Shown one piece after another: positions 4,547 through 57,855 of a stretch of 64,000 nt of DNA. A program made the position numbers and the translations under genes. The stretch lies in NCBI RefSeq assembly GCF_009177065.1, contig NZ_WEZF01000020.1, positions 62,001-126,000 of the forward strand, read 5' to 3'. The notes under the pieces were generated by a model, which saw nothing but the letters and a program-made list of their open reading frames with translations, did not search any database and had not been told where the DNA came from. Position 1 is the stretch's first letter; each line of letters begins with the position of its first letter. The DNA comes from Tautonia marina (GTDB lineage: Bacteria; Planctomycetota; Planctomycetia; Isosphaerales; Isosphaeraceae).

Positions 4547-6760
4547 ATGATTGACCCGACGCTTGACGACGACTTCGACGCCGACGAACGCGGGGATTCG
4601 TCTCCGCCCTGTTCCTATCGTGCCGCGCTGGCCGAGGCCACCCCGTTCCGGCTCCGGTTGATCTTGCGGGAACTCGGCCACGAGCCGGGCCGGAGGACCT
4701 CGGGCCTGGCCGACGAACTGGCCGATCGGCTGGACGAGCCGGGAGTCGTCGCCGGCCTCCTGGCCGACCTCTCGCCAGTCGAGCGGCAAGGACTCGGACT
4801 CTTTGCGCTGAGCGAAACCGCCGCCTGGCCGGCGGTGGCCTTCGGCGAGACCTTGCGCGGGCTCGGGCTCGACCAGCAGCAGGCCATCGAGCGGCCAATG
4901 GCCCTGGGCCTGATTGTGCCAATGCCCCCGGCGGCCGATCCCGAAGATCGGCTCTGGCCGCTCGACCCCGAGCGCGTGGGCGGCATGCGTCTGGTCGCTC
5001 ATCCCGCGGTGCTCGAAACGGCCCGGATGGACGAGCCGGAGGGAGAAGGACCGCCGGTCCTCGACGAACCGGCGCGGCTCGTCCGGGAATCGGATGGCCT
5101 GGAGGCGGTCCTCCGCCTGGCGGCCCTCTGGCAGCTTGCCGATACCAGCCCCCTGAAGCGCACTCGGCAAGGGGGGCTCTACAAGCGCGATCGTCAGCGG
5201 CTCGACGAAGACCCTGCACTGGCCGGGCCGATTGCCGACGTGTTGCACCCGCCCGAGGATCACGTCTCGCTCTGGTTGAGCCTCGGTCGGTCGATCGGCC
5301 TGCTCATCGACGAACCGGAAAGCGATCGGATTGTCGCGGCTCCGGCGTCGATCTGGGCGGAGCACGGGGTCCATCTGCCGCAGATGATCGCCGCGCGGTG
5401 GCTCGGCGGAGTGGACCTGACCGACGGAGGGGACGATCCGGGATCGAACCTCGCCCTACGTCCGGTCGCCTTGCTCTGGCTGGCCAGCCTGGAGGAAGGG
5501 GCATGGGCCCGACTTGACGAGCTGGCCGCCTGGCTCTCGGGTCGGATGCGACCCCCGAACCCTCCGGAACCGAGCGGCAAGGCCGAGCGCCGTCGAGGCC
5601 GATCGGCCGACGAGACTCCCTCGGGCGATCCGATGACCGAGGTCCTGCGATCGACCTTGCTCGGCCCGGCGTATTTGCTTGGCCTGGTCCGGGTCGGCGA
5701 AGCGGGACCGAGTCGCACACCAGCCGTGCAACTGACCGATCGCGGACGCTATGTGCTGGGTCTCGGGCCGCCGCCGCCGCCACCGCCTCGGATCGAGCAA
5801 TTCCTGTTTGTGCAGCCGAACTTTGAGATCGTCGCCTATCGCCAGGGGCTCAATCCGGCCCTGATCGGCCGTCTCAGCCGGTTCGCCAGGTGGTCGCAAC
5901 TGGGTTCGGCCCTGACGCTTCGGCTCAACTCCGACGCGATCGACCGCGGCCTGGCCTCGGGGCTCTCGGTTGATCAGATCCGAGACTGGCTGACCCGGCA
6001 CGGCGTCCGCCCGTTGCCCGATGGAGTGGCCGGGGCGATTGCCTCGTGGGCCGGTCGGCGCGATCGGCTGACCTACTACGCCTCAGCCACCTTGATCGAG
6101 TTCTCCAGCGCCGAGGACCTTGAAGTGGCCCTGGCCGATTGGGCCGAGGGAACCGCTCCGCCGCCGGTTCGGGTCGCCGATCGCGTCTTGCTCGTCGAGG
6201 ATGAGGGGGCAATCCCGTTCCGCCGTTTTCAACTGGCCGGAGCAAGAGATTATCGCAAGCCGCCCGAATCGTGCGTGGAAGTCGGCTCGGACGGCATCTC
6301 ACTCTCTGCCGACCCTGCGAGGGGAGATCTGTTCATCGAGGCCGAACTGTCACGCTTTGCCGACCCGATGCCGGGGGACGGATCGGAAACAACGCTCCGG
6401 CGCCGCTACATCGTTTCGCCGGAGTCCTTGAAGCGAGCGTCGCACGAGGGGCTGACGCTCACTGGCCTGTCTCAGTGGTATTCGCACCGAACCGGCGCGC
6501 CGATGCCGCCGGTCATCCGATGGCTGGCGAGCATCGTCGGATTCGAAGGGGCCCAACCGGCCGAGGTGGTCCGAGCTGGACGCCCCCTGATTGTTCGGAC
6601 AGAGCGATCGGAGGTTCTCGACGGCTTGCTCCAGCATCCCGAGACCCGCCCCCTGTTCGGTGATCGCCTGGGGCCGACCGCGGCCATCGTCCGATCGGGC
6701 GACCCCGATCGGCTTCAGCAAGTCCTGGCAAAGCTGGGTGTCTCGCTGGCTGTGGAGTGA
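4547..6760 (+). CDS. helicase-associated domain protein (XPB N-terminal-like)
   Basis: This 737-aa protein is probably the functional partner of the XPB helicase upstream. The middle to C-terminal part (beginning about residue 415, RIEQFLFVQPNFEIVAY) matches the helicase XPB/Ssl2 N-terminal-like domain also present at the start of the helicase. The sequence LKRTRQGGLYKRDRQRL at about residue 205 is strongly basic and may contact DNA. No Walker A or DEAD motif is present, so it is not itself an ATPase. A proline run precedes the conserved domain. A TTG at 4535 is also in frame, but the ATG at 4547, directly after the preceding stop, is the natural start. Actinobacteria keep a comparable gene beside their XPB helicase. 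Confidence 0.85.
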   Translation: MIDPTLDDDFDADERGDSSPPCSYRAALAEATPFRLRLILRELGHEPGRRTSGLADELADRLDEPGVVAGLLADLSPVERQGLGLFALSETAAWPAVAFGETLRGLGLDQQQAIERPMALGLIVPMPPAADPEDRLWPLDPERVGGMRLVAHPAVLETARMDEPEGEGPPVLDEPARLVRESDGLEAVLRLAALWQLADTSPLKRTRQGGLYKRDRQRLDEDPALAGPIADVLHPPEDHVSLWLSLGRSIGLLIDEPESDRIVAAPASIWAEHGVHLPQMIAARWLGGVDLTDGGDDPGSNLALRPVALLWLASLEEGAWARLDELAAWLSGRMRPPNPPEPSGKAERRRGRSADETPSGDPMTEVLRSTLLGPAYLLGLVRVGEAGPSRTPAVQLTDRGRYVLGLGPPPPPPPRIEQFLFVQPNFEIVAYRQGLNPALIGRLSRFARWSQLGSALTLRLNSDAIDRGLASGLSVDQIRDWLTRHGVRPLPDGVAGAIASWAGRRDRLTYYASATLIEFSSAEDLEVALADWAEGTAPPPVRVADRVLLVEDEGAIPFRRFQLAGARDYRKPPESCVEVGSDGISLSADPARGDLFIEAELSRFADPMPGDGSETTLRRRYIVSPESLKRASHEGLTLTGLSQWYSHRTGAPMPPVIRWLASIVGFEGAQPAEVVRAGRPLIVRTERSEVLDGLLQHPETRPLFGDRLGPTAAIVRSGDPDRLQQVLAKLGVSLAVE

Positions 6761-6824
6761 GTCACGGGCGGCGCGGAGGGCGGCGACCGCAAGAGCTCAA
6801 CTCACGCGATGGCCAGGCCCTGGC

Positions 6825-7406
6825 TCATCGAGAGCGTTCTTCGGCCGCTTCACGGAGCTTGCGGCGAGCCGTGGCGAGGATCGGACCGACGGAATTTTCG
6901 GGAATGCCGAGTTGCTTGCCGATCTGACGGTAATTGAGGGAGGAGAGGTGATAAAGGCGCACCACCTCGGCCTCTCGCCCCGAAAGCTGGCGGAGCATGA
7001 CCTCAACTTCCTCGGCCGAGGCGATCGGCTCGGCCAGGTCTTCCTCATCCTCAGCCATGACCACGGCGCGATGGGCGCGGGCATGACCGAGCGAAGCTTC
7101 TCGCTGACGCTTGACCAGTTCCTTGACGCAGATCCGACGGGTAATGACCGTCAAGTACGTGGGCAGGGAACTTTGCCCCTTGAAGCGCCGAAGAACGGCG
7201 TAATCGTCATCAATGAGCCGCAGCATGATCTCGGCGCAGATGTCCTCGACGTCGGCGGCCGAAAGGGTCACGCTTCGAGCGTAGGCGACATGATTGATGA
7301 CATGATAAATCAGACCCATGTAACGATCGACGAACTCGATCCAGGAACCGGGTTCGTGCTTCAGACAGCGATCGAGAAGCTGGCGGTCGAAGTCGCGGAG
7401 GGGCAC
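6825..7406 (-). CDS. ECF-type RNA polymerase sigma factor
   Basis: This 193-aa sigma-70 family factor of the extracytoplasmic-function type directs RNA polymerase to alternative promoters. Region 2 contains FVDRYMGLIYHVINHV and a following LPTYLTVITRRICV segment. Region 4 contains LSGREAEVVRLYHLSSLNYRQIGKQLGIPENSV, a clear helix-turn-helix. The reading frame is open upstream to an ATG at 7541, but a GGAGG seven bases before the GTG at 7406 and the start of homology favour the shorter form. No anti-sigma gene lies beside it. It is divergent from a response regulator, so both may share the 7407-7816 upstream region. Its stimulus is not evident. Confidence 0.88.
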   Translation of the reverse strand: MPLRDFDRQLLDRCLKHEPGSWIEFVDRYMGLIYHVINHVAYARSVTLSAADVEDICAEIMLRLIDDDYAVLRRFKGQSSLPTYLTVITRRICVKELVKRQREASLGHARAHRAVVMAEDEEDLAEPIASAEEVEVMLRQLSGREAEVVRLYHLSSLNYRQIGKQLGIPENSVGPILATARRKLREAAEERSR

Positions 7407-7816
7407 GTCCAGACCTCCCAGGAGAGACGATCGATCGTCGAAGGTCCGCGGACCGTCCCGGTTGCGAGCCAAGCCCCAAGAAAAAGGGAATGCCGAGCGG
7501 GGGGTCTTTGGAATCGAAAGACACGATGCGGACGAAACCAATCGTCCGAAGTCCCTGGTGCGAACCCGGGGTTCTCCGGTCGCGTTCGAGACGTCGAGCG
7601 ATCACGACGCGCATCGGTCCACAAAAGAAGTCTTACACCAGGAATGCTCTCGGGCAAGGGCCGCCGTCCGGGTTGATCGGGAGGAACCGGAGGAGCAACC
7701 CCGGTCGGCGGAAGCCGCATTCCTGCGTTTCGTCGGAATTGGTAGACTCAGGGCGACAATGGGGATCCGAATTGACGGATCGTTCCGAAGATCGTGGAAC
7801 CAGGGCAAACCCACGC
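7407..7816. other. 410-bp divergent intergenic region
   Basis: This stretch separates the divergent sigma-factor and response-regulator starts and must hold both promoters. I see no convincing gene: the open frames here are low-complexity and lack an RBS. I could not assign a -35/-10 pair, an ECF-type promoter or an operator by eye. Confidence 0.6.
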
Positions 7817-8275
7817 ATGGACACCTCCTCGGATCAGCCGGTCATCCTGATCGCCGACGACAATCCGCAGAACGTTGAGCTGCTGGAAGCCTATCTTGCC
7901 GGCCTCGATTGCGAGATCCTGACGGCTTCGGACGGCGAAGAGACGCTGAAGGTCGTCGCCGAGCACAAGCCGGACCTCGTCCTGCTCGATGTGATGATGC
8001 CTCGCGTCTCGGGCTTCGAGGTCTGCCGGACCATCCGATCCGACCCGGAGACAAGCAACACCCTCATCCTCATTGTCACCGCCCTGAACGAGGCGTCCGA
8101 CTTTGAGCGCGGTGTGCAGGCCGGGACCGACGACTTCCTGACCAAGCCGGTCAACAAGGTCGAGCTGCTCTGCCGGGTCAAGAGCCTCCTGCGGGTGCGC
8201 CACCTGAAAAACCAGCTCGACCGAACCCTGGCCTACCTGGCCGATGTCGAGACCAGCAGCCGAGATCAGGACTGA
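7817..8275 (+). CDS. response regulator receiver-domain protein
   Basis: This 152-aa protein is a single CheY-like receiver domain with a short C-terminal helical tail. The acidic pair is D14-D15 (ILIADDNPQN), the phospho-acceptor is D58 in LLDVMMPRVSG, a switch threonine lies in IVTALNE, and the conserved lysine is in DFLTKPVNK. No output domain follows. The tail (RVRHLKNQLDRTLAYL) looks like the helical linker seen in PleD-like and histidine-kinase-associated regulators, so it probably acts by protein-protein contact. No histidine kinase is encoded nearby. The frame is open upstream to 7490, but the receiver fold begins at the ATG at 7817. Confidence 0.92.
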   Translation: MDTSSDQPVILIADDNPQNVELLEAYLAGLDCEILTASDGEETLKVVAEHKPDLVLLDVMMPRVSGFEVCRTIRSDPETSNTLILIVTALNEASDFERGVQAGTDDFLTKPVNKVELLCRVKSLLRVRHLKNQLDRTLAYLADVETSSRDQD

Positions 8276-53312: not shown

Positions 53313-55412
53313 ATGTCCTTGATCGAACGCCCCTTGACGCGTCGCGACCTCGCCCGAAACGGGGCGGCCGTGTCGATGGCCTGGACCCTGGCCCGAGCGT
53401 TGACGCCGATCGAGTCGGCCTCGGCGGCCCTCGTGGCGCCTCAGGACGGCGAGCGGGCGATCCTCAACCGCTTCCCGCGAATGCTCCAGGACTTCTACAC
53501 GGCGAAGGTTCGCCAGCTCGAACGGCAGCGGAACCGGACCTTCCGCGAGATGCAGACCAGGGAGGATGCCGAACGTTACGTGGCCTCGGTCCGCGAGCGG
53601 ATTGCCGAAAGCTTCGGCCCCTTGCCCGAGAAGACCCCGTTGAACCCGAAGGTTACCGGGGTGGTCGAGCGTGACAGCTACCGAATTGAGAATGTGATCT
53701 TCGAGAGCCGACCGGGCTTTTTCGTCACGGCCAACCTGTACGTGCCCACCAACCGAGACGGAAAGATGCCGGGAGTCGTCGGCAGTTGCGGGCACTCGGC
53801 CAACGGGAAGGCGGCCGAGGCGTATCAGAGCTTCGCTCAGGGACTGGCCCGACAAGGGTACGTCTGTCTGATCTTCGATCCGATCGGCCAGGGAGAGCGG
53901 ATGCAGTACCTCGACGACGCCCTGAAGCCGAAGTACGGCGGCGGCACCCGAGAGCACCTGATCGCCGGCAATCAGCAATTCCTGACCGGCGAGTTCTTCG
54001 GCACCTGGCGCGCCTGGGACGGCATTCGTGCACTCGACTATCTGTTGACCCGAGAGGAAGTCGATCCGGAGCAGGTCGGCATCACGGGGAACTCGGGCGG
54101 CGGCACGATGTCAACCTGGCTGATCGGCCTGGAACGACGCTGGACGATGGGGGCGCCCAGTTGCTTCGTGACCAGTTTCCAGCGGAACCTCGAAAACGAG
54201 CTGCCGGCCGACACCGAGCAGTGCCCGCCGAGGGCCCTGGAACTTGGCCTGGAGCATGAGGACTTTCTGGCCGCGATGGCGCCGAAGCCGGTGATTATTC
54301 TTGCCAAAGAGCGTGACTACTTCGACGTTCGTGGATCGATCCTCGCGCACCGTCGTCTCCAGAGACTGTACGACTTGCTGGGGGCGAAGGAGAACATCGG
54401 CCTGTTCTACGGCCCAACCGAGCACGGTTACTCGCAGGAGAACCGGGAGGCGATGTACGGGTGGTTCAATAAGGTGACGGGGGTTTCCGACGGATCGAGC
54501 GAACCGGACCTGACGATCGAGGCGGACGAGACGCTTCAGTGCACGACCGATGGGCAGGTCGGCGGAGAGCTGGGCTCGAAGTCGGTCCTCGACTTCACGC
54601 GGGCGGCCGTTCAGGCACTGGCCGAGCAGCGCGGGTCGCTCGATGCCGAGGGCACGCGGAAGGCGGTCGCGGCCGCCATGAAGCTGCCGGAGCCGAGACC
54701 CTTGCCGGCGTATCGGATCATGCGGCCGATCTCGGGCCGGGATTACCCGACGTCGCACCTGGGGAACTACGGCGTGCCGACCGAGCCGGGGGTCGAGGCG
54801 ATTGTCTATCGCCTGTATGACCGGTCGCACGTCTCGCGGCCGCCGGCCGACGCAAAGCGGGCGATCCTGTACGTCTCGGACAAATCGAGCGATGAGGAAC
54901 TGCGCGAGGAACCGTTGATCCGTCGCCTGATCAACGCCGAGCCCGACTCGGCTGTCTACGCCTGCGACGTGCGGGGGATCGGCGAGTCGAGGCCGAACAC
55001 CTGCGGGATCAACTCGTACTTCAACCCGTATGGGAACGACTACTTCTACGCGGCCCACGGCATCATGCTCGGCCGGCCGGTACCGACCCAGCGGACGCTC
55101 GACGTACTGAAGGTGCTGGAGTGGCTCAAGGGGATCGGTCATGAGGAGGTCCACCTCGTCTCCCGAGGCTGGGGGGCGATCCCCGCAACCTTCGCGGCCG
55201 TGCTGGAGAACGAGGGCTTCGTGACCCAGGTGACGCTCAAGCACGCCCTCACCTCGTTCGCCGATGTGGCCGAGGCCGAGCAGTACGACTGGCCCCTCTC
55301 GACCTTCCTGCCAGACGTGCTGACCACATTTGACCTGCCCGACTGCTACCGGGCGCTGGAGGGGAAGAATCTCCGCCTGATCGAGCCGCGCGGAGCGATG
55401 ACCGAGGGCTGA
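53313..55412 (+). CDS. secreted tandem alpha/beta-hydrolase (acetyl-esterase-like)
   Basis: This 699-aa protein opens with a twin-arginine-like region (LTRRDLARNGAAVSMAWTL). The first hydrolase domain (about 110-400) has FFVTANLYVPTNR, FDPIGQGER and the nucleophile elbow VGITGNSGGGT with S261. It resembles the acetyl-xylan-esterase/dienelactone hydrolase group. The second domain (about 500-699) has the same fold features, but its elbow reads VHLVSRGWGAIP, where glycine takes the nucleophile place. It therefore looks catalytically silent. GGAG precedes ATG 53313. It is divergent from the oxidoreductase gene; the substrate is probably a plant or algal glycan. Confidence 0.83.
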   Translation: MSLIERPLTRRDLARNGAAVSMAWTLARALTPIESASAALVAPQDGERAILNRFPRMLQDFYTAKVRQLERQRNRTFREMQTREDAERYVASVRERIAESFGPLPEKTPLNPKVTGVVERDSYRIENVIFESRPGFFVTANLYVPTNRDGKMPGVVGSCGHSANGKAAEAYQSFAQGLARQGYVCLIFDPIGQGERMQYLDDALKPKYGGGTREHLIAGNQQFLTGEFFGTWRAWDGIRALDYLLTREEVDPEQVGITGNSGGGTMSTWLIGLERRWTMGAPSCFVTSFQRNLENELPADTEQCPPRALELGLEHEDFLAAMAPKPVIILAKERDYFDVRGSILAHRRLQRLYDLLGAKENIGLFYGPTEHGYSQENREAMYGWFNKVTGVSDGSSEPDLTIEADETLQCTTDGQVGGELGSKSVLDFTRAAVQALAEQRGSLDAEGTRKAVAAAMKLPEPRPLPAYRIMRPISGRDYPTSHLGNYGVPTEPGVEAIVYRLYDRSHVSRPPADAKRAILYVSDKSSDEELREEPLIRRLINAEPDSAVYACDVRGIGESRPNTCGINSYFNPYGNDYFYAAHGIMLGRPVPTQRTLDVLKVLEWLKGIGHEEVHLVSRGWGAIPATFAAVLENEGFVTQVTLKHALTSFADVAEAEQYDWPLSTFLPDVLTTFDLPDCYRALEGKNLRLIEPRGAMTEG

Positions 55413-55711
55413 GGCCCGACGACGATGACCCGACGATCGCGGGGCCGATTGCCCGGTTTCGGGCGAGCCTCGCGGTCGGAGGAACACCGAATCGTTCTTC
55501 GCTCCGAGACCGTTCGACCAAAGGGCGTCGAGTGGCAGTGGACGGACCAAGGGGCTTCGGGTGGTCCGTGCCACCCGGGCTTGCACTGGCCCAACGCCAT
55601 GCCCATGATGGGGACTCTCACCGAAGGGCTTCGGGGTGCGGGGCCTGGGGATTGGGGTGGGCACCTCAAGGACTCGTTCCGTTGAGGTGCGTTAACGGGA
55701 GGCTCGACACA
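55413..55711. other. 299-bp intergenic region with small palindrome
   Basis: No gene is supported, although an 86-codon frame spans 55425-55685. A 7-bp stem with a 6-base loop lies at 55558-55577 inside a passage that looks like a dispersed intergenic element. Confidence 0.5.
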
Positions 55712-56116
55712 ATGCGCGGCTCGATGGCGGCTCTTGCACTGGCGTTCGCCTGGCTCTCCGGATCCTCACATGCTCAGGAGATCACGCTTGAGTCGGTCCC
55801 TCCGGTGGTCGTCTCAACGGTTCCGAAGGCCGGATCGGGCGATGTGGACCCGGGGTTAACCGAGATCAGAGTTACCTTCAGCAAGGCGATGCAGAACGGA
55901 AGCTGGTCGTGGTCGATGATCGGGAAGGACTCATTCCCCGAGACCACCGGCGCGCCGAACTATCTGGAGGACCAACGGACGGCCGTACTGCCGGTCAAGC
56001 TGATGCCGGGCAAGACGTATGCGATCTGGCTGAACAGCCAGCAGTTCCGCAACTTCAAGGATGCCGCGGGGCAACCAGCGGTGCCCTATTTGCTGGTCTT
56101 CAAGACGAGCGAGTGA
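55712..56116 (+). CDS. secreted small Ig-like domain protein
   Basis: This 134-aa protein has a signal peptide (MAALALAFAWLSGSSHAQ) and one bacterial Ig-like (SbsA/Big_5) domain. The pattern VPPVVVSTVPKAGSGDVDPG with VTFSKAMQNGSWSW and the closing LMPGKTYAIWLNSQQFRNF is typical of this fold. It has no other domain, so it is probably a secreted adhesion or binding module. GGGAGG precedes ATG 55712. It lies 85 bp upstream of the acyl-carrier-like gene. Confidence 0.82.
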   Translation: MRGSMAALALAFAWLSGSSHAQEITLESVPPVVVSTVPKAGSGDVDPGLTEIRVTFSKAMQNGSWSWSMIGKDSFPETTGAPNYLEDQRTAVLPVKLMPGKTYAIWLNSQQFRNFKDAAGQPAVPYLLVFKTSE

Positions 56117-56201
56117 GGGAAGCGGCTTCGTGAGGCTTCAGGACATCTGAATCCAACATCGCATATTAATCCAAAGAAAACAACCGAGGAGGCGGGGGGC
56201 G

Positions 56202-56462
56202 ATGGGCCTCGACACGGTTGAACTGGTGATGGCCGTCGAAGAGGAGTTCGGTATCTCCATCCCCGACGATGTGGCGCCGAAACTCGTTCGACTTGGCGAC
56301 CTTCATGCGTTCGCGGTCGAGGCTCTTTGCGCTCGCGGAGAGTCAGTCGATCCCTCCGCGGTCTGGGAACAGGTCAAGGCGATCATGCGACGTGAGTTCG
56401 GAATCCGAGAGGGGAATCTCGTCCCCGAGGCTCACATCGTCGACGATCTGGGCTTGGACTGA
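56202..56462 (+). CDS. acyl-carrier-protein-like protein with circularly permuted order
   Basis: This 86-aa protein begins [20 protein letters not shown], which equals the helix II region that in normal ACP follows the DSL phosphopantetheine site. It continues [21 protein letters not shown] (helices III-IV). The second half, [15 protein letters not shown] with [13 protein letters not shown] at the very end, equals ACP helix I and the segment leading into DSL. The attachment serine would sit at the junction but is absent: the start reads MGLD in place of DSLD, and the stop follows GLD. A strong RBS (GGAGG) supports the ATG. No fatty-acid or polyketide genes adjoin it. Confidence 0.85.
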
Positions 56463-56631
56463 CGCCTTCCCACTCCCATGACCTCTGAGGTCACAATCGC
56501 ACATACGACGGGTCGTGGCAGGGGTGAGGCGTTCCCAACTCGGGTTGGAGGGTGAGGCTCGGTGAGGGGAGCTGTCGGCGGGGTGGCTGTGGTCCTGTCG
56601 CCCCAGTTCTCCTGACCAGCTCAGAATCGGA

Positions 56632-56652
56632 CTGGGGTCAAAATGACCCCAG
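56632..56652. terminator. 9-bp hairpin after the acyl-carrier-like gene
   Basis: A perfect 9-bp stem (56632-56640 with 56644-56652) with a 3-base loop lies in the 253-bp gap between the converging acyl-carrier-like and hydrolase genes. A-rich bases form the loop only. Confidence 0.5.
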
Positions 56653-56715
56653 CCACACCACCGAAAGGTGAAACCGAACACAAACATCTCACGTTGTGTT
56701 TCGGAGTTCGAAAGA

Positions 56716-57855
56716 TCAGGGATTGACGGGGAGGTAACGCTCGAACCAGGAGAGCATTTCATCCTTCATTTCGGGAAGGTACTCGTGGCCGGTCTCGGTG
56801 TAGACGATGCTGCGAAAATGATCGGGGGCACCGAGAAGAGTGTAGATTTGCGAGAGCTTGGATTCGAGGGTCTCGACTCCATCGAGGGGGGCGCCCGGGT
56901 CCTCGTCGCCGGAGAGCTGGAGCATGGGGCGGGGGGCGACGAGGGCGTAGATGGCCTCGGTGTCGAAGTGGTTGAGCAGGCCGGGGACGAAGTAGTAGAT
57001 GCCGTGCTTGCGGAGGTCGCCGTGGGAGAGGAGTTCGGAATAGCGGGTGAAGCAGGCGACGCCGACGAGGGCGTCGATGCGGTCGTCGATGGCGGCGAGC
57101 CACCAGGCGCGGGTGCATCCCATGCTCATGCCGGTGGCGCCGATGCGGTCGGGGTCGATCTCGGGGCGGGTCTGGAGGTAGTCGAGCAGGCATTGCTCGT
57201 CGCGGAGCATCATGCCCCACAGAGTGCGGCCTTGCCAGAGGTGGAGCTTGAACAGGCTGTGCTCCTGGCCAAGCTTTGAATCATTCTCGCCGCCGGGGCC
57301 GAGGCCGATCCGATCGCCGTTGAAGTAGGCGTCGATGGCGGCGACGACGTACCCCTTGCGGGCGAGCATCGGGCCGACGTACTGGCCGTGATCTTCAATC
57401 GTGCAGATGCTTTCCTTTGAGCTGCCGTGGCCGTGCAGGCCGACGATCGCCGGAGCGGGGCCTTTCAGGTTGTCGGGGATCAGGAGGATGCCGGGAACGA
57501 TCATATCCACACCGTTGTGGAACTGAAAACGTTCGAGGGTGTAGCCGTCGTGCTGCTCGCGCGAGACGACCTCGACGGCCGCCGGATCGGGCCGGGGCGG
57601 GAGGTCGCCGAGCAGATCGAGCAAGGTGGAGCGTACGGCGTCGCGGCCCTCGGATTGCCACTGGTCGGCGTCGGTCGGCAGGGGCCACTCGGGTAACTTC
57701 ATCGCACGGAAAGTTTCGGGAACGACGGCCCAGGGCTCGCCGGAAGGGGTGCCCCCCTTGCTCGATTTCGGGGTGACGCGCTCCTGGGCCGTCGCAGTGG
57801 GCGCGACGGAGAAGGCGAGCACGGCAAGGCAGGCGAGGACGGGGGAGGATTGCAT
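56716..57855 (-). CDS. secreted alpha/beta-hydrolase (dienelactone/acetyl-esterase family)
   Basis: This 379-aa secreted esterase-like protein has a signal peptide (VLACLAVLAFSVAPTATAQ). The catalytic elbow is GATGMSMGCTRAWW (GxSxG), and GLHGHGSSKES forms the oxyanion region. The C-terminal catalytic His is likely in YTETGHEYLPEM, with the acid in SGDEDP. The length and arrangement match planctomycete acetyl-xylan-esterase-like proteins. GAGG precedes ATG 57855; a longer frame to 57963 is unconserved. It probably helps deacylate polysaccharide together with the other secreted enzymes of the region. Confidence 0.88.
   Translation of the reverse strand: MQSSPVLACLAVLAFSVAPTATAQERVTPKSSKGGTPSGEPWAVVPETFRAMKLPEWPLPTDADQWQSEGRDAVRSTLLDLLGDLPPRPDPAAVEVVSREQHDGYTLERFQFHNGVDMIVPGILLIPDNLKGPAPAIVGLHGHGSSKESICTIEDHGQYVGPMLARKGYVVAAIDAYFNGDRIGLGPGGENDSKLGQEHSLFKLHLWQGRTLWGMMLRDEQCLLDYLQTRPEIDPDRIGATGMSMGCTRAWWLAAIDDRIDALVGVACFTRYSELLSHGDLRKHGIYYFVPGLLNHFDTEAIYALVAPRPMLQLSGDEDPGAPLDGVETLESKLSQIYTLLGAPDHFRSIVYTETGHEYLPEMKDEMLSWFERYLPVNP

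Follow-up and report, generated by a model that had tools for sequence, protein, structure and literature searches.

The stretch of DNA analysed here, called the window, comprises 64,000 nucleotides of Tautonia marina and carries on its forward strand a small gene for a protein related to acyl carrier protein (ACP). Its ATG start lies at 56202 and its TGA stop at 56460-56462, giving an open reading frame (ORF) of 86 residues. The features of the gene and its product are as follows.

56187-56192, + strand: Shine-Dalgarno-like AGGAGG, ending nine bases 5' of the ATG, read from the sequence
56202-56462, + strand: coding sequence, stop included, of the permuted ACP-like protein (86 residues), assigned from the ORF, HMM alignment and dN/dS of 0.18-0.26 against three relatives
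56202-56207, + strand: Met1-Gly2, with Gly2 in register with the phosphopantetheine serine of ACP (HMM state 41 falls on residue 3)
56208-56312, + strand: N half, residues 3-37, equivalent to ACP helices II, III and IV (ACP HMM, PDB ACPs and Foldseek)
56313-56354, + strand: linker from ACP helix IV to helix I, and the insert site in longer relatives
56355-56459, + strand: C half, residues 52-86, equivalent to ACP helix I plus loop, ending DDLGLD (ACP HMM and family profile)

The original prediction had called the ribosome-binding site strong, and the AGGAGG nine bases before the ATG agrees with this, being fair by eye. A scan of 55400-56800 found no sigma-70-type promoter. The eight window neighbours scanned encode a Big_5 protein, two esterase-type hydrolases, a thioredoxin-PDZ protein, AIM24, an oxidoreductase, ThuA and DUF1501, and none of the eight is a fatty-acid gene. 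The DNA that separates the permuted gene from the convergent esterase gene contains a perfect palindrome, TGGGGTCAAAATGACCCCA (56633-56651), which has one exact copy in the whole genome and is possibly a two-way terminator without a T run.

Both halves of the protein are homologous in sequence to AcpP-type ACP, and their order is exchanged: the helices run II-III-IV and then I, instead of the I, DSL loop, II-IV of ACP. This swap had been proposed from the sequence alone, and profile alignment bears it out, with residues 3-37 covering helices II-IV and residues 52-86 covering helix I and the loop. An HMM built from 87 ordinary ACP sequences of the retrieved loci, selected by a DSL-type motif, matched residues 3-37 through its states 41-75, at 46.2 bits, and residues 52-86 through its states 5-39, at 18.7 bits. 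The serine is state 40, the single state between the two pieces, and it is occupied by Gly2. The cut therefore falls at the DSL site, as had been claimed, since the C half ends at state 39, one residue short of the serine position, and the N half begins at state 41. The further claim that Ser is replaced by Met-Gly needs amending: the DSL motif does lack its phosphopantetheine serine, but the position itself is held by Gly2, Met1 being the start residue. When the ACP HMM was doubled head to tail, residues 3-86 aligned as one piece at 64.9 bits, and each of the 16 short forms analysed likewise aligned as a single piece, which stopped no more than two residues before its C-terminus.

Established models and structures gave the same arrangement. 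TIGR00517 matches the window protein in two stretches, the better placing residues 3-33 on profile positions 38-68, with a score of 55.0 bits, under the curated cut-off of 70.45; PF00550 scores 25.2 bits, above its cut-off of 20.8, with residues 3-24 as its best stretch. Among the Pfam and NCBIfam matches listed, no single family covers the whole protein. On the Aquifex ACP 2ehs, residues 55-86 align with chain residues 3-34 and residues 3-38 with chain residues 36-71, so that the only chain residue skipped between the two matches is 35, the serine. The family profile in turn scores 34.2 bits on residues 4-34 of the Aquifex ACP, which supports the C half. For the top 60 solved sequences listed, the highest-scoring stretches follow the ordinary ACP order (one alignment was read).

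The original prediction had suggested comparing a predicted structure with ACP, and the model obtained is confident, has three helices and superposes on ACP over its N half. The AlphaFold2 model, made from an alignment of eight sequences, has a pLDDT of 91.4, a pTM of 0.79 and helices at 3-16, 31-44 and 51-66. The top three Foldseek rows cover 38-40 columns of ACP structures at an rmsd of 0.6-1.2 and 50-59% identity, with E-values of 0.69 or worse. The VIA-align rows, matched over the whole length, are mostly ACP chains aligned in sequence order at 4-18% identity and Z of 6.4 or less, with phosphoglucomutase chains among them, and do not prove the fold of the joined halves. Single bridge residues appear in the model at 30 and 78, which by register are residues 64 and 27 of E. 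coli ACP, bridged in the ordinary protein; this hints weakly that the halves close on each other. Judged from the model, the N and C halves most probably close up into a helical bundle like that of ACP.

Relatives of the window protein were collected by several routes, which yielded 39 distinct complete permuted proteins, the window's counted: 19 short forms of 80-93 residues and 20 longer forms of 178-426 residues (ORFs as read). Both halves were matched in permuted order in 34 of the 39, and one half only in the other five; among relatives matched over their full length, none has the ordinary order of halves. Homology, the second check suggested at the outset, thus finds the permuted order common to 39 proteins, with Gly2 in 38 and Ser in one. 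A peptide-pattern scan of genome contigs gave 75 loci, mostly one-half matches, and the non-permuted loci inspected among them were ordinary ACPs. Thirty-two of the 39 were gathered with a helix II start pattern that required E, D or Q at residue 7 and E or A at residue 13, and seven came from profile, tblastn or DNA-pattern hits outside that pattern; 12 go back to the scan with peptide patterns, ELVMAVEE among them, and two to a DNA pattern in which Gly2 and Glu7 were fixed. Truncated, broken or divergent sequences (L189, L190, L195, L196, L198, L260 and the second copy at L182) were excluded.

Short forms were found in the family to which the window belongs, in further genomes of that phylum, in Verrucomicrobia and Kiloniellales, and on a large Gemmatirosa plasmid; longer forms come from Candidatus Parabeggiatoa, Kiritimatiellales, Geobacteraceae, Oryzomonas, Armatimonadetes and further genomes sampled from three phyla. 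The family is sparse and patchy, a distribution that fits an accessory rather than a core role. Within the window's own family, permuted matches at E 1e-9 were present in four of 45 genomes, its own included, and in the phylum sample of Verrucomicrobium, short-form matches over residues 1-85 or 1-86 were present in at least five of 240, seed genome included. A long-form profile at E 1e-15 matched two of 198 and four of 194 genomes. With a short-form query at E 1e-7, the 294-genome sample of the window's phylum returned just three proteins: the window's short form, a long form and an ordinary ACP. A plasmid search with a short form gave 18 records, one of them full-length (Gemmatirosa), and a search with a long form gave two weak partial hits, of which L260 resembles a divergent long form and has no clear Met-Gly start. 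Another hit of the short-form plasmid search, L259, proved to be an ordinary ACP.

Two broader searches were rejected as a census of the family. A DNA pattern for M-G-L/F-D/E-x-V-E-L/F matched 27 of 294 and 28 of 397 genomes (the reversed pattern, three of 294 and none of 397); among the matches listed, the permuted family accounted for seven of 30 and one of 29 places, the rest being chance ORFs or different proteins. At E 1e-5, profile A3 matched 248 of 294 genomes, with mostly ordinary ACPs among the matches listed.

Some loci hold damaged copies. At L182, a frame-disrupted second permuted copy lies near 6669-6845 on the minus strand, adjoining the intact one, and L189 and L198, from the window's phylum, keep in frame only the later part and the C-terminal half of a long form; the latter two are perhaps decayed copies.

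Each of 12 genomes behind peptide-scan loci contains at least one further separate match, and the window's genome has a DSL-type ACP on another contig (tree row acp_L002); therefore, the permuted protein does not replace ACP. Neighbourhoods were compared by an all-against-all search of ORFs up to six places from each permuted gene, using a crude ORF picker that included some wrong-strand ORFs. With these crude ORFs, no recurring partner gene was found beyond close relatives and abundant families. The largest shared group spans four permuted-gene neighbourhoods at three loci and includes DUF1501/DUF1553-type genes as read.

The recognition face of helix II was compared across the collection. 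By register, residues 6, 7, 10, 13 and 14 are the equivalents of Val40, Glu41, Met44, Glu47 and Glu48 of E. coli ACP, which are partner contacts. Across the 39 proteins, Val stands at residue 6 in 34, Glu at residue 7 in 37, Met at residue 10 in 28, and Glu at residues 13 and 14 in 39 and 25, respectively; in the 25 proteins obtained outside the peptide- and DNA-pattern scans, the corresponding counts are 20, 23, 14, 25 and 11, the Glu48 position having Asp in six and Lys or Arg in six more. Most of these 25 still passed the looser helix II pattern (E/D/Q at 7, E/A at 13), and the helix II counts are in part biased by the collection, including that for the Glu47 equivalent. Read from the alignments, the Val40, Glu41 and Glu47 equivalents are held, whereas those of Met44 and Glu48 are not strictly so. 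Exposed positions 5, 11 and 15 vary more than the kept helix II residues, and all 16 short forms analysed have a net charge between -6 and -14. The conservation of the Glu41 and Glu47 equivalents could be structural instead of partner-facing.

The explanation proposed here starts from the order, cut site, missing serine, conservation and selection of the permuted protein, all of them observed. The protein is a stand-alone, naturally circularly permuted ACP paralogue whose two termini lie at the phosphopantetheine serine site of ordinary ACP. Its halves would close into an ACP-like bundle, and helix II would still present the ACP recognition face. Since the serine position is taken by Gly or by an exposed N-terminus, no phosphopantetheinyl transferase should load it and it should carry no acyl chain in the known way. 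Such a mimic would dock on at least one ACP-binding protein and compete with it, report on it or anchor it, and most longer relatives would do so at the membrane. We give this reading, a non-acylatable ACP mimic with a regulatory or scaffolding role, a probability of about 0.5 on the sequence evidence; it is the best explanation because most of the docking face is kept and the load is discarded. The original prediction had left the choice between a non-acylated regulator or scaffold and a carrier modified elsewhere, and the kept partner-facing residues appear to favour the former.

The precision of the cut supports the permuted-ACP reading and is also the ground for a different one. Residue 3 falls on ACP state 41 in 38 of the 39 proteins, which puts residue 2 at the serine state; in the other, L192, no N-half match to the ACP HMM was obtained at the sensitivity used. 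At the other end, the final residue is at state 39 in 31 proteins, on state 38 in two and on state 37 in two, and beyond state 39 in none of the 35 matched; the C-half match is absent in four, and several of those obtained score below 10 bits and were accepted for their position rather than their score. In 86 ordinary ACPs, the C-terminus takes eight lengths, 40-48 residues after the serine, with the commonest length in 40, so that C-termini are more variable there than in the permuted proteins. Residue 2 is Gly in 38 of the 39, two of these from the Gly-fixing DNA pattern, and Ser in one; the 25 proteins not gathered by a peptide- or DNA-pattern scan have Gly in 24 and Ser in one. The sole Ser2 protein, L012:7777, is a second copy in Verrucomicrobium; with this exception, the loss of the serine is not absolute in the family. 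This genome has permuted copies at 6001-6261 (starting MGME) and 7777-8037 (starting MSLD), 1.5 kb apart, with starts 1.8 kb apart. The Gly2 rule also has exceptions among more distant relatives, for the divergent long forms L190, L195 and L260, outside the 39, lack a clear Met-Gly start. Two divergent 80-residue copies from one genome of the window's phylum (L221 and L229) end in S-D and gave no C-half match to the ACP HMM.

Removal of the initiator Met is expected for Met-Gly, and Gly or Ser at residue 2 permits it; Met1 of the window protein is probably removed in vivo, and the chain would then be expected to begin at the former serine position. The cut site might thus be a working site, at which the free Gly2 amine, lying at the place of the serine hydroxyl and next to the C-terminal carboxylate, is acylated, aminoacylated or ligated, giving a new type of carrier or ring. 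The near-constant Gly2, with an exception that likewise allows Met removal, speaks for it, as does a C-terminus fixed in 31 of 39 proteins while inserts of about 90 to 340 residues are tolerated elsewhere. However, Gly and Ser are also good helix N-caps, the last residue varies (Asp in just 22 of 39; elsewhere G, A, Q, C, I, N, F or S) and no recurring transferase or ligase gene adjoins the family in the crude ORFs, which leaves this reading improbable. Its boldest form, an ACP ring opened at its own cofactor site with the N-terminal glycine amine and C-terminal carboxylate as a functional pair and a new carrier or switch chemistry, is slightly less probable again.

Hardly better placed is the view that the halves pair between neighbouring molecules, so that ACP-like domains are joined head to tail in dimers or chains that act as a scaffold. 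A half-linker-half order permits such swapping in principle, and the longer forms join domains likewise. However, the single-chain model is confident without a partner, and a linker of about 14 residues seems long enough for closure within one chain.

That the protein is a carrier loaded away from the serine site, on some Cys, Ser or Lys, is very improbable. In alignment A3, all six longer forms have a Cys in common, at column C50 within the insert, but no Cys is common to the short forms, 10 of 16 having none at all, and a ten-row short-form alignment contains no invariant Ser or Lys.

It is just as improbable that the protein is a functionless, decaying by-product of ACP gene duplication, as its patchy distribution and the existence of broken copies such as the one at L182 might suggest. 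The identical cut is retained across phyla, and comparison of the window gene with three same-family relatives gave dN/dS of 0.18, 0.25 and 0.26 (dN and dS of 0.050/0.278, 0.236/0.941 and 0.382/1.465). Against a congener, the ORF has 90.7% DNA identity, compared with 78.5% in the 200 bases upstream and 55% downstream. These substitution patterns indicate a gene under purifying selection. An assembly, frameshift or gene-calling artefact, for which nothing was found except the odd order, is refuted by the homologues: as originally maintained, this is a real gene without a frameshift, the same order recurring in 39 distinct complete proteins from several phyla and many assemblies, including Oryzomonas japonica Red96, Verrucomicrobium sp. 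BvORR106 and Gemmatirosa kalamazoonensis KBS708, none of them labelled as MAGs.

The origin of the permutation was addressed with a tree that combined 33 permuted domains, after rotation, with 47 ordinary ACPs over 74 columns, the serine column and the preceding one having been dropped. The ordinary ACPs, picked by similarity to the window query rather than as a broad sample, occupy one side of a branch with support of 90/82, present in 88% of 200 bootstrap trees. This fits a permutation that arose once, on a tree with few columns, several long branches and an unsettled bootstrap.

Compared with known systems, the window protein resembles AcpP (PF00550, TIGR00517) in the homology of both halves and in largely keeping the helix II recognition face, the acidity and the DLG loop; it differs in its swapped halves, in lacking the phosphopantetheine serine, in ending its chain there and in falling below the TIGR00517 cut-off. 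The peptide maturation system ACP-related protein of TIGR04069 is, by its name, likewise an ACP relative outside fatty-acid synthesis, but its model scores only 12.4 bits against a cut-off of 70, with residues 4-23 as the best stretch. Swaposin is a natural circular permutant and, like the present protein, an all-helical domain with exchanged halves; it sits inside a protease, however, whereas the permuted ACP is a free protein cut at its cofactor site. Judged by title and beginning of abstract, no permuted ACP was found among the papers listed, in a search that left subscription papers mostly outside. The family models scanned match the permuted proteins as partial ACPs only, and therefore annotation may call them functional carriers.

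ACP is a very constrained small protein, here rearranged around its defining residue. If the docking mimic is the right reading, the family would separate docking from carrying, with the cofactor site dropped in several phyla, and it would offer a natural means of finding out by which of its contacts ACP regulates lipid synthesis. The short forms are a clean natural circular permutation, and the longer members have a further unit between the halves, perhaps ACP-like and mostly with membrane segments.

In the longer forms, an insert of about 90 to 340 residues separates the halves, and the termini stay at the serine site. The insert often holds a Cys, F-Y-x-x-R, a W, one or more transmembrane-like stretches and then T-V-x-D-L or similar; such stretches were seen in 14 of the 16 longer forms analysed, L188 and L111 being the exceptions at the threshold used. 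In hhalign, the insert aligned weakly with ACP helix I and helix IV in the expected order (E 0.003 and 0.005, probability below 10%), and it is perhaps a further ACP, degenerate but with the usual helix order, which a transmembrane hairpin interrupts. A structure model of a long form (pLDDT 61, pTM 0.42) was not relied on. Because short and long forms are intermixed in the tree, with four changes each, either gain or loss of the insert happened repeatedly or tree rows are misplaced. The 387- and 426-residue forms at L078 (6001-7164) and L181 (from 6071) seem, by eye, to hold two transmembrane-bearing insert units between their ACP halves.
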